This document shows, one piece after another, positions 809-20,550 of a DNA stretch of 33,978 nucleotides. Both the position numbers and the translations under genes were made by a program. The stretch spans positions 1 through 33,978 of the forward strand of contig JACRHD010000033.1 of NCBI GenBank assembly GCA_016234115.1. Direction: 5' to 3'. Source of the DNA: Nitrospirota bacterium (GTDB taxonomy: Bacteria > Nitrospirota > Thermodesulfovibrionia > UBA6902). Under the pieces are notes generated by a model, which was not told where the DNA came from, did not search any database, and worked only from the letters and a program-made list of their open reading frames with translations. Position 1 is the stretch's first letter, and every line of letters starts with the position of its first letter.

Positions 809-825
809 AGCAAGAATGATTCCAA
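809..825 (-). promoter_or_regulatory. Sigma54-type promoter (-24/-12)
   Basis: On the minus strand the site reads TTGGAATCATTCTTGCT. It has GG and GC separated by exactly 10 bases and a TTGCT -12 block; the consensus is TGGCAC-N5-TTGCW. Transcription would start near 798 and give a 70-base leader for the two-CW gene. The -24 block is imperfect (GGAAT instead of GGCAC). Confidence 0.5.
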
Positions 826-981
826 TGACAGGGACTTGTAAGTTATCTTAAAAAATGAACATGATACGCGACCATACGTGACCGGGCATATTGAAAAGAG
901 GTGCGACGTCTATTGCGATAATATTGTGATGGTATTACAATCCCCTTGAAAATCCGGAGTATTTACAAAGTGCAAAGCTTG

Positions 982-1007
982 TTGCGCAGGCGCAAATAAT
1001 GTTGCGC
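982..1007. promoter_or_regulatory. Palindromic activator-type site plus half site
   Basis: TTGCGCAGGCGCAA (982-995) has perfect 6-bp arms around a 2-base centre. A further TTGCGC half site follows at 1002-1007. It lies about 185 bases upstream of the expected start from the sigma54-type promoter, the usual distance for an NtrC-family enhancer site. It also lies just beyond the 3' end of the NtrC-type regulator gene. A terminator is less likely because no T-run follows on either strand. Confidence 0.4.
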
Positions 1008-2496: not shown

Positions 2497-2570
2497 GAGT
2501 TGAGAGTTGCGAGTCAAGAGTTGAAATATGGCTGCTTATGCCTGACTCATAACTCTTGACTCATGACTCT
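2497..2570. repeat. Heptad inverted repeat between kinase and regulator genes
   Basis: The left arm has four phased 7-mers (GAGTTGA, GAGTTGC, GAGTCAA, GAGTTGA; 2497-2524). The right arm has four more (TGACTCA, TAACTCT, TGACTCA, TGACTCT; 2543-2570). The arms are complementary with a few mismatches. The right arm lies inside the kinase gene and encodes its last ten or so residues. Confidence 0.8.
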
Positions 2571-4845
2571 TCTTATTATACACGGGCAGCCGGACGCACG
2601 CGGTAGTGCCCCGGCCCGGCGCGGAGCGGAATTCCATGCTGCCTTTATGCTCTTTTATTATCGCATAGGATATTGAAAGCCCCAGTCCCGTGCCGCCCTT
2701 ATCAAGCCTCGTGGTGAAAAACGGCTCGGTAATACGGTCGAGGACGTCCGCCGGAATACCGCATCCTTCATCTTTGACTTCGATAATGACCTCGCCCGCA
2801 ATTCCATCATGCAGGGTCGATATCCACACGCCTCTTTCCACGTCGTCCAATGCCTGCAGCGAATTCATCAGAAGATTGATTACCACCTGCTCGAGCTGCC
2901 GGGAGCTTCCTTTTACGCAAGGGACATGGTCCGCGCAGACAACATGGAAACGGCCCGTGTATTTTCTTATCCCGGCATCAAGAATGAATACGGCGTTTTC
3001 GACCACCCTGTCGACGTCGACTTCTTCCTGCAGCGCTCCCGTGTCCGTCCTGGCGAAACCGGTCAGGTTCTCGACAATATTCTTTATCCGTTCAGTCCCT
3101 TTATGGATGCTGTTGAGCAGTTTCGGCACATGGGCCTGCAGGTCCTGAAAGCTCATATTCCCGATGGCGAAGTCGCCCTCTCTCCGGTAATGTTCTTCAA
3201 GGACATGAAAAATATCTTTCCAGATTTCATTAAACAACTGGGCATTGGACATGATAAAACTGTTGGGGTTGTTGATCTCATGGGCGACGCCGGAGACGAG
3301 CGTGCCCAGAGACGTCATCTTGTTTGCATGAATAAGCCTCGCCTGGATCCTTTTCGCCTCATCCTCCAGTCTCCTGCGTTCGGAGATGTCGCGTATGACG
3401 GCAATGGAGACGTATCCGCCTTCCGATTGCGCGCAGGATACTGTCAGCTCGACCGGGAATTCACGCCCCTCACGGTGACACGCGATCGTCTCGAAAGGCC
3501 TGTCGTACTCGGTCCCGTGACCCGCCACGTACAGTTGTTCAAGGTTTTTTACGAACGACTCCCTGCGTCCCGGCGGGATGATGGTCCCGGACATCTTCCG
3601 GCCCAGGGCCTCCTGCCTGCTCCATCCGAACATCGTCTCGGCCCTGGGGTTCCAAGTTGTAATCACATCATCGGCGGCGGTCGTTATAATGGCGTCAAAG
3701 GCATTGCCGACAATCAGGCGCGTCTGCTCCTCGGCGTCTCTTTTTATGATCTCGCGCGACCTGACGACCTCTACAGTCAACTGGCGGAACCGTTCTTCAA
3801 GTATATGGAGCTGGTCTCCCCTATATAGTTCTTCCTTCTGATGCACGCCCAGTGTGTGTTGTGAAAAGTCCGCCACCCGTCGGGTCAGACGCTGTATGCG
3901 TTGAGTAATATAGAACGTAACGATAGCGAAGGCGGCAATAAGCACCAGGGCCGATAAGGCGCGCTCCTTTCGTTCCTTCATAATCAGGGTCCCGGTCACG
4001 GAATTTACCTCGGCCATGGATAAAAAAGAGGCGAACTTCAAACTGAGTTCAGAAGAGCCGTAATCAAAGAACTCTTTGCCCGTCATGAGATAATTGCCCT
4101 GAAGCTCCTCAAGCGGCGCGCCGGGCGGAATTTTCAGGGGATCGCTGCTCGTCAGCACCCTGGAATTATCTCCGGGCGTCAATAATGCCGTCACCCCCCT
4201 GTCGGTCGAACCGCCCAGGGCGGCAATCAGAAACTGCTCATTTATGGGGGTGGCCAGCATTAAAGTGGCCGACGGCTTCCCGGACGCGTCGGTATACAGG
4301 GCCGACGTGACGAGAAAAGGGACGGCGTCGAGAGTCAAAAGATAACTCTGCTGACGGCTCATTTCAATCATAAGCGGCCCCGGGTGAAGCAGCGCCGGCG
4401 GGACAGGGTCCTTCCCGTCCTGATACACTTCTCTGACATTTCCCTGAGGATCTATCAACACGGCATAACGGGGGCAGGCAAGGGCATAAAGCAGTGAACG
4501 CGAGGAAAACCACTTCGGGGGCTGTTTATGGTATATGACCTCCGCAGAATTTCTTCCCCGCCATTGGCCGCTCTCGACGTAATCGCTGAAATTCTTCTGG
4601 ATTACAAAAAGCCTCGCCAGATGCCGGTATACCCTCATGTAGCGGTCTAGGTGAAGCCTGTCGTCCATCGCATGCCGCTGCAGCCGCTCACTTGATTGGG
4701 CCAGGAAGATATCTTTGATCCTCCGGCTTTGAATGTAGTCCAGTACGACCCATAGCACGATTCCCGTTACAACGCTGAGAGCCACCAGCTTGACGGTCAA
4801 CGGAATACGGTAATACAAGTTGCGGTATCTTGCGCGTATATTCAC
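2536..4845 (-). CDS. Membrane PAS sensor histidine kinase, 769 aa
   Basis: Domain order: transmembrane helix (about 17-37), a large periplasmic sensor region (about 40-290, possibly CHASE4-like), a second helix (about 297-315), a linker or HAMP region, a PAS domain (about 375-490), then HisKA and HATPase. The phospho-acceptor is H522 in VAHEINN. ATP-site motifs are NLLMNSLQAL (N box, about 657), DEGCGIP (692-698), EPFFTT (707-712) and GGTGLGLS (717-724). The GTG start overlaps the stop of the binding-protein gene (GTGA), so the two are translationally coupled. The last residues (about SHESRVMSQA) are encoded by the heptad repeat, so the native C-terminus was altered. It likely phosphorylates the downstream NtrC-type regulator. 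Confidence 0.9.
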   Translation of the reverse strand: MNIRARYRNLYYRIPLTVKLVALSVVTGIVLWVVLDYIQSRRIKDIFLAQSSERLQRHAMDDRLHLDRYMRVYRHLARLFVIQKNFSDYVESGQWRGRNSAEVIYHKQPPKWFSSRSLLYALACPRYAVLIDPQGNVREVYQDGKDPVPPALLHPGPLMIEMSRQQSYLLTLDAVPFLVTSALYTDASGKPSATLMLATPINEQFLIAALGGSTDRGVTALLTPGDNSRVLTSSDPLKIPPGAPLEELQGNYLMTGKEFFDYGSSELSLKFASFLSMAEVNSVTGTLIMKERKERALSALVLIAAFAIVTFYITQRIQRLTRRVADFSQHTLGVHQKEELYRGDQLHILEERFRQLTVEVVRSREIIKRDAEEQTRLIVGNAFDAIITTAADDVITTWNPRAETMFGWSRQEALGRKMSGTIIPPGRRESFVKNLEQLYVAGHGTEYDRPFETIACHREGREFPVELTVSCAQSEGGYVSIAVIRDISERRRLEDEAKRIQARLIHANKMTSLGTLVSGVAHEINNPNSFIMSNAQLFNEIWKDIFHVLEEHYRREGDFAIGNMSFQDLQAHVPKLLNSIHKGTERIKNIVENLTGFARTDTGALQEEVDVDRVVENAVFILDAGIRKYTGRFHVVCADHVPCVKGSSRQLEQVVINLLMNSLQALDDVERGVWISTLHDGIAGEVIIEVKDEGCGIPADVLDRITEPFFTTRLDKGGTGLGLSISYAIIKEHKGSMEFRSAPGRGTTACVRLPVYNKKSHESRVMSQA

Positions 4846-5855
4846 GGCTCCCCGATCAATTCATCACCCCTGAATTTCCATCCCGCCTTTTTCAGGCGTG
4901 AAGCGGGTACGATGTTATGCTCTTCGCCGAGCTTGCCGGCATGCTGTAACAGATGCTCAACCAGTTGTCCGGCCTTTGTATTTTCAAGCCCTTTGCCTTC
5001 CCAGGTTGTCAGATTATATACCCGATACAGCGGATACCTGAGCGAGATGAGATTTTCCGCATTATACGGGCTGTAACCATTAATGCTGATGGCCTTGACT
5101 TTCCCCCTGTCCTTATAGCGGACAGTGTTCCATAAGACCTCATATCCGATGGCCCCCGGATTTAAGGCAACCTGTGAGATCACATCCGGAATGGCGCCTA
5201 CGTCCTGAACATCGGGTGTAAACATGTCTTCATTGTCGAGGAGCAGCCGCCAGTGCCCCGGTCTCAATTTGCAGTGCAATCGCGTAACAGGTTGTATCAG
5301 CACGTCTTTACCCATAATGCCGAGCGGCCCGGTCAGTTCGGACCAGCGATGAATTTCCCCCATGAAGATTTTCCGGACCTGTTCCAATGAGACATTATCA
5401 ATGGGATTGTCGGGATGGACAAGAAGCGCCTTCGCGTCAATCCCAAGTGTATGGAACTTCAATCCCGGCAGCCTGTCGGTTTTGTCGGGTGGACAACAGA
5501 ACCCGGCGATATCGACCGTCTTTTTAGACAGAAGCCCGAAGGCAATGCCGCAGGTAGCGTCCTCGACAGTGATATTCAGGTTGTGTTTTTTTGCATACGC
5601 CTGAATGACCGGCAAAAGGGCGCCGTACAAATGCTGGTCAAGGACAACCGCTATGTCCGGGTCGCTTGCCGCCGGACCATGTTTGACAGGCCGCCTTTTC
5701 CAGTCTTCGGGCATCGGCTGCATTGCCGAGGGGTCGGAAAAAGCCGGGCCTCTCAAGGCCTTCCCGGCCTCGGGTTCGGCAAGACCTGATGCTGAAAATA
5801 ACAGGAGCGCCGCAAGTAAAAATACGGGCAGTATCCGAAATAAAAATGACCTCAT
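4842..5855 (-). CDS. PstS-like periplasmic substrate-binding protein
   Basis: A signal peptide (hydrophobic run LPVFLLAALLLFSASGLA) is followed by a PBP-like fold of the phosphate-binding type. Typical segments are the LVHPDNP strand, LEQVRKIFMGEIHRWSEL and the late PGAIGYE motif. No ABC permease or ATPase genes are nearby. Instead the gene overlaps the kinase by 4 bases, so a role as a ligand-sensing partner of the kinase fits better than transport. The ligand is uncertain: phosphate, molybdate or another oxyanion. The ATG at 5855 has GAGGAG 7 bases upstream; the longer frame from 5870 starts with a TTG inside that ribosome site and is less likely. Confidence 0.75.
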   Translation of the reverse strand: MRSFLFRILPVFLLAALLLFSASGLAEPEAGKALRGPAFSDPSAMQPMPEDWKRRPVKHGPAASDPDIAVVLDQHLYGALLPVIQAYAKKHNLNITVEDATCGIAFGLLSKKTVDIAGFCCPPDKTDRLPGLKFHTLGIDAKALLVHPDNPIDNVSLEQVRKIFMGEIHRWSELTGPLGIMGKDVLIQPVTRLHCKLRPGHWRLLLDNEDMFTPDVQDVGAIPDVISQVALNPGAIGYEVLWNTVRYKDRGKVKAISINGYSPYNAENLISLRYPLYRVYNLTTWEGKGLENTKAGQLVEHLLQHAGKLGEEHNIVPASRLKKAGWKFRGDELIGEP

Positions 5856-5890
5856 GTTTTTTCTCCTCAAAGTGACGGGAAATATTTTTT

Positions 5891-5899
5891 AGTATAACA
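5891..5899 (-). promoter_or_regulatory. Extended -10 promoter for the sensor operon
   Basis: On the minus strand the site reads TGTTATACT, an extended -10 (TGnTATAAT type), about 36 bases upstream of the binding-protein start. No good -35 is visible, which is common when TGn is present. Confidence 0.4.
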
Positions 5900-5941: not shown

Positions 5942-6020
5942 AAGTAGCCAGTAGTAAGTAGTTAGTAGTTAAGGGATACACTTTAAGAAATCATTCCCCT
6001 TAACTACTAACTACTGCTAC
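5942..6020. repeat. Heptad inverted repeat, 19-bp perfect stem
   Basis: The left arm is AAGTAGC, CAGTAGT, AAGTAGT, TAGTAGT, TAAGGG (5942-5975). The right arm is TTAACTA, CTAACTA, CTGCTAC (6000-6020). Bases 5957-5975 are exactly complementary to 5997-6015. It lies between the divergent sensor operon and the trpB-like remnant. A short tandem CCCTTGA pair follows at 6036-6049. Confidence 0.85.
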
Positions 6021-6094: not shown

Positions 6095-6444
6095 ATGGAA
6101 ACTAAAATCCTTCTCTCCGAAAAAGAAATCCCTGACTGCTGGTACAACGTCACTCCGGACCTTCCCGAACAACTGCCGCCACCTCTTAATCCCGCAACGG
6201 GAAAGCCGGTGGGCCCTGACGACCTGTCGCCCATCTTCCCGATGGAGATCATCAAGCAGGAAGTCAGCGCCGAGAGGTGGATCGACATCCCCGATGATAT
6301 TATTTCAGCGTACAAAATTTACAGGCCCACGCCGCTTCACCGCGCTCTCAGGCTTGAAAAGGCGCTGAAGACAAACGCGACGACTACGAATATTCCGAAG
6401 ATAAAATTAAAGAGGCGATTTCGAAGATACCGAGAGTCGGGTAA
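6095..6444 (+). pseudogene. trpB2-like gene with its middle deleted
   Basis: The first 90 or so codons match the start of the TrpB2 (TrpB-like PLP enzyme) family: [13 protein letters not shown], then [24 protein letters not shown] and [15 protein letters not shown]. The intact protein is about 430-450 aa and makes tryptophan from indole and serine. Immediately after KALKT the frame changes. Reading from 6379 in another frame gives [18 protein letters not shown] and a stop at 6442-6444, which resembles the C-terminus of the same family. About 300 codons, including the PLP lysine region, are missing and the joint is out of frame. The promoter and ribosome site (AGGA) remain. Either a real internal deletion or an assembly error could explain this. 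Confidence 0.75.
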
Positions 6445-6454
6445 GCCTGATAAT

Positions 6455-6511
6455 ATCGTGATCCGCGTCCGCGAAAAACGTACACGGGCAACGGACACGC
6501 ATACCGGTTAT
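6455..6511. repeat. Convergent-gene spacer element, copy 1
   Basis: It has two blocks shared with 19492-19564. ATCGTGATCCGCGTCCG (6455-6471) matches 16 of 17 bases. The 30-base block at 6482-6511 (core CAACGGACACG, ending ACCGGTTAT) matches 27 of 30. The spacer between blocks is 10 bases here and 26 in the other copy. It ends directly at the helicase stop codon. Confidence 0.75.
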
Positions 6512-7756
6512 TTATTTCCGGCGGCGCGTCGGGGGATGGCTGCGGGGATGATTTCTCCGGGGGGGCGCTTCATTGTTCTTCTTCGGCGCGACCCGGGGCC
6601 TCCTCCGGTAATTGGTGACGATCATTTCGTCGGTCAACTGCATCACCGGGATTTTCAGTTTAATGAAATCCTCGATGTCGGAGAGGGAATGGATGTATTC
6701 CTCGTCTGCAAGACTGATGGCCTTGCCGCCCGCCCCGGCCCTTGCAGTCCTGCCTATCCGGTGCACATAATCCTCGGGGTCCTGGGGCAGGTCATAGTTG
6801 ATCACATGCGTTACGCCGTCTATATGGAGCCCCCGGCTTGCCACATCCGTGGCAACGAGAATCGGCAACTCGCCTTCTTTGAAACGGGTGAGCACCTTCA
6901 TGCGTTTCCTCTGGTCAAGGTCTCCGGAAATGGAGGCCGTCGCCAACCCGTTGGCGTTCAGAAGGAGTTCGAGGCGCTCAACGGCGGCCTTCGTGTTACA
7001 GAAGATGAGATACCGGCCCGAGGGTTCCCTTTTGAGTATCCCGAGGAGCAGGCCGTTCTTCTCGGACCTTCCCACGTGATAGATCTCCTGTTCGATCTTC
7101 TCCACAGTCATCTTCTCCGGCGTCAGGGAGAACTGCACCGGCAGATTCATATGCTCATAGCACAGTTCGAGGACGCGGTGTGAAAGGGTGGCTGAAAAGA
7201 GCATGGACTGCCGCTTGTTATAAGGAGACATTCTCCTGAAGAGGAACCTGAGATCGCTGATGAAGCCCATGTCGAACATGCGGTCCGCCTCGTCGATTAC
7301 CAGGAACTGGGTCTTTTTCAGACTGTAGACATTCTGCTTCAGATAATCGATGAGCCGCCCCGGAGTTCCTATAAGCATGTCAACCCCTTTTGAGATGTCT
7401 TCGCGCTGCTTCAGGTAGTCAACGCCCCCGAACACCGGGAGGATCCTGAAACCTGCAGCACCGCCAAGCAGTTTCGCCTCGGCGTTTATCTGCATCACGA
7501 GCTCCCGTGTCGGCGCGATTATAAGCGCGCGCGGCGACGGTCCTTTTTCAGGCTGACGCGTTGTGAGCATCCGGGAGAACACGGCGATCAGGAAGGCCGC
7601 GGTCTTGCCGGTGCCTGTCTGCGCCTGTGCAGCGATGTCCTTTCCGCGCAGGGCCTCGGGAAGCGTCTGCTCCTGCACCGGGGTGCATTCGGCAAACCCG
7701 GCGGCCCTTATACCATCAAGGACCTTTTCAGGTATGTTTAATTCTTCAAATTTCAC
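6512..7756 (-). CDS. DEAD-box ATP-dependent RNA helicase, 414 aa
   Basis: All core motifs are present: the Q motif (TPVQEQ), motif I AQTGTGKT (45-52), PTREL, TPGR, DEAD (155-158), SAT (188-190), then [19 protein letters not shown] and [10 protein letters not shown] in the second RecA domain. It ends in a short basic tail ([12 protein letters not shown] and PPTRRRK) typical of RhlB/RhlE/CsdA-type proteins that bind RNA non-specifically. The start is a GTG. It unwinds short RNA duplexes, for example in cold adaptation, ribosome assembly or mRNA decay. It converges with the trpB-like remnant; the cold-shock gene lies about 0.6 kb upstream on the same strand, and another DEAD-box gene at 9315. 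Confidence 0.92.
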
Positions 7757-19566: not shown

Positions 19567-20550
19567 CTATTCATATCTGACGCTTGCGTTGCCGCCTTTG
19601 TTCTTGGCGAGGTAGAGGGCCTTGTCGCTCTGGTTGAGCAGCTCCTCGATACTGATCTCATTGGTTTTGTAGGGGAAGGACGCGGTGATGCCGATGCTGA
19701 GGGTGCGCGATATGAAGGATTCCGAGTCGCTTCCTCTTTTGGTCGCCTTAAAGGTCTTGGCCTCGAACCCTTTCCTTATACGCTCCGCTACGATATAGGC
19801 AAGGGTAATATCGGTCTCGGGAAGGACGACAATAAATTCTTCGCCGCCGTAGCGGAAAGAGCGGTCGAATTTTCTCGTGTTCTCCTTTATCAGCCCCCCG
19901 ACATACTCCAGCATGGCGTCTCCGGCAGACTGACCGTAGTTGTCGTTAATGCTCCTGAAATTGTCGATGTCGATCATCATGACGGCAAAGGGGTGCCCGT
20001 ACCTGTTGCAGCGGGCGATCTCGTCCTCGAGGACGGAAATGAGATGGTGACGGTTATACAGGCCGGTAAGCTTGTCGGTTATCATCATCTTTTGTATTTC
20101 CCTGTTCTTGGCGTCGATCTGCTCCAGCGCCGAAATGAGCTCCCTGTTAAGATGCTCGATAAGCTCTTTATCTTTCAGCAGCTCCTTTTTTTGTTTGCCG
20201 AGAAGAAACATCATATTGTTATAATGCTCCCCCAACTCTTCCACAATCGTAGGACATGAACCCTTGAAGACCTTGCAATTGAAGCACTCGCCGCGCTTCT
20301 CCTTTAAATCGCCCTGATGCTCTGCGCCGCAGCAGGCGGCCTCGACCTGCCAGCATCTGACGCCGTCAGGCGCGCTCTTATGCAGGACGCATGCGTCGGA
20401 TTTGCATTCCAGCGTGCTGCAACTGATGAGATGGGGATTATCGAAGGCAGCGCAGGCATTGTTCGACAGGGCCTTTTCGAACATGGGCAGGATCTCTTCC
20501 CTGAGCCTCTTTAGAACGGCATTTATTGTTTTTTCTGGTCCGGAGCTCAA
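19567..20550 (-). CDS. Diguanylate cyclase with Cys-rich N-terminus
   Basis: The C-terminal GGDEF domain (about 155-327) has the active GGEEF (235-239). The inhibitory I-site RKFD (226-229) sits exactly five residues before it, so the protein should make c-di-GMP and be product-inhibited. A helical coiled linker (about 105-155) precedes it. The N-terminal 100 residues carry about ten cysteines, with CWQVEAACCG and CFNCKVF matching the second half of a two-CW domain, so it may sense a metal or redox signal. There are no membrane helices, so it is cytosolic. The start is a TTG at 20550 with a weak GAGAG site; a later start is possible. Confidence 0.85.
   Translation of the reverse strand: MSSGPEKTINAVLKRLREEILPMFEKALSNNACAAFDNPHLISCSTLECKSDACVLHKSAPDGVRCWQVEAACCGAEHQGDLKEKRGECFNCKVFKGSCPTIVEELGEHYNNMMFLLGKQKKELLKDKELIEHLNRELISALEQIDAKNREIQKMMITDKLTGLYNRHHLISVLEDEIARCNRYGHPFAVMMIDIDNFRSINDNYGQSAGDAMLEYVGGLIKENTRKFDRSFRYGGEEFIVVLPETDITLAYIVAERIRKGFEAKTFKATKRGSDSESFISRTLSIGITASFPYKTNEISIEELLNQSDKALYLAKNKGGNASVRYE

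Follow-up and report, generated by a model that had tools for sequence, protein, structure and literature searches.

A probable dedicated sigma54-dependent sensor-regulator system with one adjacent two-CW target gene in a Nitrospirota bacterium

The window analyzed here, a 33,978-nucleotide stretch of contig JACRHD010000033.1 from a Nitrospirota bacterium (assembly GCA_016234115.1), raises the question of whether a small two-CW domain gene is directly controlled by the regulator encoded next to it. A first-pass annotation had proposed such control from a sigma54-type promoter, a palindrome and a neighbouring NtrC-type regulator with a GAFTGA loop, belonging to an otherwise orphan system. Indeed, the neighbouring protein has the receiver, GAFTGA-bearing AAA+ and Fis-type HTH domains of an NtrC-type enhancer-binding response regulator (Table 1). 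It is not a bare orphan: on the minus strand, the genes for a solute-binding protein, a histidine kinase and the regulator follow one another as a cluster with a sigma70-like -10 element upstream, and the two-CW gene comes after a gap of 311 bases. For the solute-binding protein, the ATG at 5855 was used as the start; the open reading frame as listed begins at 5870. The intergenic gap between the kinase and regulator genes (~2500-2580) looks repeat-rich.

Table 1. Positions of the genes and putative control elements in the window.
Feature	Position	Strand	Remarks
Two-CW domain protein gene, predicted target	429-728	minus	99 aa; NF045718
Sigma54-type -24/-12 promoter TGGAATCATTCTTGCT	824-809	minus	motif match and conservation
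Operator dyad 3 CGCAATAGACGTCGCA	902-917	minus	putative site; 93 bp upstream of -24 box; one half-site mismatch
Operator dyad 2 CGCAACAAGCTTTGCA	971-986	minus	putative site; 162 bp upstream of -24 box
Palindrome TTGCGCAGGCGCAA (TTGCGC-AG-GCGCAA)	982-995	unstranded	junction of dyads 1 and 2
Operator dyad 1 CGCAACATTATTTGCG	991-1006	minus	putative site; 182 bp upstream of -24 box
NtrC-type response regulator, predicted activator	1040-2482	minus	receiver, AAA+ with GAFTGA loop, Fis-type HTH
Sensor histidine kinase	2536-4845	minus	PAS, HisKA and HATPase_c domains
Exported PstS-like solute-binding protein	4842-5855	minus	PF12849; TIGR02136 below cut-off
Extended -10-like element TGTTATACT	5891-5899	minus	upstream of solute-binding protein gene; shared by the four orthologous loci

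The promoter that had been reported 81 bases before the start codon (GG-N10-GC with TTGCT) was found as described. TGGAATCATTCTTGCT has the TGG-N8-TTGCW form of a sigma54 promoter, with GG and GC dinucleotides 10 bases apart, lies 81 bases from the two-CW ATG at 728 and predicts a transcription start at ~798; counting against it, the -24 box reads AAT after TGG where the consensus reads CAC. The palindrome TTGCGCAGGCGCAA is likewise present, lying ~185-197 bases before that predicted start, in agreement with the earlier figure of about 185. In the window taken by itself, neither element is better than chance, since TGG-N8-TTGCW occurs twice against 2.09 matches expected and perfect 6-2-6 inverted repeats 15 times against ~8 expected, and the case therefore rests on comparison with relatives and on conservation. 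The second strict promoter match, at 5950-5935 on the minus strand, is probably a chance occurrence; it is missing in the relatives and adjoins a perfect inverted repeat. This 19-bp repeat, CCCTTAACTACTAACTACT, spans window positions 5957-6015 upstream of the solute-binding protein gene. Further along, the first ~95 residues of a plus-strand frame at 6095-7183, which runs across a DEAD-box helicase gene (6512-7756, minus strand), match the TrpB-like enzyme NF009057, which suggests a truncated trpB-like gene.

For the comparison, orthologous loci with the same three genes were available from three genomes of the same genus (L032 in G006, L033 in G001 and L034 in G008). Their regulators are 73-74% identical to the window regulator; over the intergenic stretch that reaches from dyad 1 to the promoter, identity with the window is 54-58%. 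In the four-genome alignment, the promoter is invariant at all 13 compared positions and the half-sites at 23 of 24, against 64 of 174 columns elsewhere, with Fisher p values of 5e-6 for the promoter columns and 1.5e-8 for the half-site columns that are optimistic because the columns were chosen after the alignment had been seen. The promoter TGGAATCATNNTTGCW lies downstream of the regulator gene in each of the three orthologous loci, and the window genome carries an rpoN gene. On these comparative grounds, TGGAATCATTCTTGCT is very probably a real sigma54-type promoter. In L034, the kinase frame is split into a frame of 529 aa and a second, short one directly ahead of the regulator; a frameshift or an assembly error may be the cause.

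Upstream of the promoter, the conserved unit is YGCAA-N6-TTGCR, present in three copies per promoter in all four genomes at 181-183, 161-163 and 91-93 bp from the -24 box, so that the spacings agree within 2 bp. Dyad 1 of L033 ends in T, and at the position of dyad 3 all three relatives read TGCAA-N6-TTGCG. Dyads 1 and 2 stand in tandem with a 20-bp period and their half-sites alternate every 10 bp, which is why the pair allows a palindrome to be read in two phases; only GCAA-N6-TTGC agrees with the isolated third copy, and this settles the phase. Accordingly, TTGCGCAGGCGCAA was rejected as the operator unit: its GCGC symmetry is unconserved, whereas GCAA-N6-TTGC is conserved and also recurs at the isolated third site. 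The enhancer proposed earlier thus stands, at the sequence level, as an array of three conserved upstream dyads of the kind expected for a sigma54 promoter, but the palindrome named as its unit had been read out of phase. Conservation in relatives, by which the first-pass annotation had wished its palindrome to be judged, is divided in the same way, the GCAA/TTGC half-sites being kept and the outer GCGC symmetry not. It had also advised a genome search for the palindrome upstream of other sigma54-type promoters; TTGCGCAGGCGCAA occurs once in the window genome, which gives no support to a wider regulon.

Single dyads number about a dozen per genome. Of the 37 family genomes, four contain the exact tandem operator, each a single time and always adjoining the orthologue of this regulator; it is absent from the other 33, though more distant relatives of the regulator occur there. 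In a tree of related regulators, the four proteins form one clade (SH-aLRT 100), and they share the helix ITRQALNRRLLRKS, where the paralogues mostly have ITRQALNKRL. These observations bear on the alternative that the promoter and array are real and that the main activator is another enhancer-binding protein of the same cell. With more than 30 long matches to NtrC-type regulators in the window genome, cross-binding by a paralogue is possible; nevertheless, family genomes without this regulator lack the tandem operator, and those with the regulator carry the operator nowhere but next to its gene, whereas the paralogues are spread elsewhere in the family, and we consider a different main activator unlikely.

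The two-CW protein itself is a clear member of its family, matching NF045718 over the whole model at 91.5 bits (cut-off 35), one of seven two-CW matches in the window genome, five of which exceed the cut-off. A weaker two-CW-like stretch (23.1 bits, below the cut-off) lies at 20263-20391 inside a longer minus-strand frame, 19567-20550. The same control does not extend to other two-CW genes: among ten two-CW loci, only that of the window combines the operator with a strict promoter match in the same direction within ~1.5 kb. The phrase 'two-CW domain' occurs in none of the papers of the library searched. In the window, the two-CW gene stands directly behind the promoter. In the three relatives, the operon is longer, with a beta-propeller protein (459-478 aa) first or second and the two-CW protein last, and the neighbour of the beta-propeller gene encodes a PEP-CTERM-like, a lectin-like or a PAS-LuxR protein depending on the genome. 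Therefore, the proposal that the two-CW gene is the target holds in that conserved sequence, spacing and one-to-one co-occurrence probably link it directly to the neighbouring regulator, and needs amending in that it is the sole target only in the window genome.

The operon structure of the relatives also invites the view that the promoter is an ancestral remnant, whose main target was deleted and which drives the two-CW gene weakly or by accident. All three relatives have the beta-propeller gene (459 aa), which is missing throughout the window genome (97% complete), and dyad 3 is imperfect here. On the other hand, the promoter and dyads 1 and 2 have stayed intact after long divergence and the two-CW gene is common to the operon in all three relatives, and a remnant is accordingly an improbable reading. 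Since the window regulator has a longer branch in the tree than its orthologues and the beta-propeller gene has been lost from the operon, the circuit could be decaying in the window genome; alternatively, the change may reflect specialisation.

A role for the inverted repeats at the RNA level, be it as a hairpin or as a terminator downstream of the regulator gene, is very improbable. Dyad 1 can be folded as a 6-pair hairpin, but the fold z-score is only -1.6, neither a T-run nor a terminator match was found, and the dyads keep a constant distance from the promoter but not from the stop of the regulator. An Rfam search of the window returned 6S RNA alone, at another place. That promoter and palindrome are both chance matches is hardly credible: although the window by itself shows no excess of either motif, conservation, spacing and co-occurrence all speak against coincidence.

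The reading that we prefer, considered likely from sequence, domain content, conservation, spacing and one-to-one co-occurrence, is a dedicated sigma54-dependent system in which a solute-binding protein, a kinase and an NtrC-type regulator activate one adjacent target. In all four genomes, the extended -10-like, sigma70-like element TTTTGTTATACTAAAAA stands before the solute-binding protein gene, and no dyads occur there; this suggests that the sensor genes are expressed in sigma70-type fashion and that sigma54 control is reserved for the output. In the proposed mechanism, the exported PstS-like protein and the membrane kinase would sense an external solute and phosphorylate the regulator, whose dimers would bind all three upstream dyads (182, 162 and 93 bp from the -24 box) and assemble there. 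DNA looping would then bring the GAFTGA ATPase to sigma54-RNA polymerase at TGGAATCATTCTTGCT, which would be opened, and the two-CW gene would be transcribed, the control presumably being activation rather than repression. In the relatives, the equivalent control region would drive a longer operon of exported proteins ending with two-CW.

At glnA-type promoters, NtrC, a GAFTGA ATPase with a Fis-type HTH, acts from tandem dyads of the GCAC-N-GTGC type upstream of a -24/-12 promoter. The window has all of these elements, namely tandem dyads, a -24/-12 promoter, GAFTGA and a Fis-type HTH, but its dyad differs in sequence and, at 325 bits, its regulator falls below the NtrC equivalog cut-off of 558.6. 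PrsK/PrsR, a kinase and an NtrC-type regulator controlling PEP-CTERM genes (Haft et al. 2006, PMC1569441), is similar in having long intergenic regions in which a sometimes repeated operator is followed by a sigma54 promoter before exported-protein genes, and several paralogues of the window regulator are likewise followed by PEP-CTERM-like targets. In contrast to YGCAA-N6-TTGCR, motif 1 of PrsR, reported in Proteobacteria only, ends in TTTACA ~63 bp before motif 2 (PMC1569441), and no TTTACA-ended motif occurs in 830-1039 on the coding strand as read. The window regulator was also rejected as PrsR by TIGR02915 (268-271 bits against a cut-off of 502.6); a separate true PrsR is encoded in the window genome. 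In Desulfovibrio, the gene of regulator DVU2275 is likewise co-localized with an operon whose sigma54 promoter is conserved and has a palindromic site predicted upstream of it, but the lineage is another, the palindrome is AT-rich and the operon encodes pyruvate formate-lyase (PMC4641369). Judged by its letters, the layout is that of textbook sigma54 enhancer control and resembles PrsK/PrsR without being a member.

A similar arrangement recurs among related regulators. When 300 bp after the regulator's stop were searched, 21 of 41 loci had a sigma54-like site (p<0.05), and in 19 of the 21 this site lay 174-233 bp (about 175-235) after the stop. The 30 co-directional loci gave 13 strict promoter matches against 0.48 expected, counts that are not independent because some loci are close relatives, and for which the co-directional sorting was partly manual. 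Many family loci have the variant half-sites TGCGACA and TTGCACC after the stop. Some paralogue targets carry PEP-CTERM-like tails, which pass the TIGR02595 cut-off of 16 bits in two cases (L052 and L057) and stay below it in six; others are small cysteine-rich proteins without family matches. At the window the target is two-CW and not a PEP-CTERM protein; the window genome has two exosortases. After the regulator relatives at L053, L054, L059, L060 and L045 come small proteins (79-105 aa) in which cysteines are conserved (FSCLSG...CLCEVE...YICNCP), and two that were tested had no NCBIfam match. Downstream of still more distantly related regulators, in named genomes that include Desulfobacterales and Accumulibacter, a sigma54-like site is also frequent, as counted without a shuffled control.

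Two other features lie after regulator genes of this family. At L045, L050 and L056, a putative leader containing TTTAGCGGGGCAGGGG, ~250-370 bases after the stop and between a sigma54-like promoter and the next gene, shows three helices with four pairs changed on both sides in three sequences. It is a possible structured RNA, with no Rfam match, and a model built from it finds only these three copies, all in one genus, among 37 family genomes. At L067, L068 and L069, CCATACAGCCCCCTG is conserved ~100-220 bases after the stop, before a formate dehydrogenase-like operon, and is followed by a terminator-like hairpin with a T-run (in L068, GGGGAATACTTTAAGG...CCTTGAAGTATCCCCTTTTT). Rfam had no match for the L069 region; the stretch and hairpin are perhaps a leader or riboswitch.

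It seems an evenly balanced proposition that the expanded NtrC-type family of this lineage is hard-wired to the next gene downstream, through a private operator array after the stop and a sigma54 promoter ~200 bp on, with outputs that would be mainly surface proteins (PEP-CTERM-like or beta-propeller) or small cysteine-rich proteins, two-CW being one such output. For the two-CW gene, the analysis provides a likely activator, operator and promoter, with a predicted binding site at letter level. Family-wide, it would offer a simple rule for predicting the targets of many unstudied regulators, and the control of PEP-CTERM-like surface proteins by sigma54, described in Proteobacteria, would gain examples outside that group.
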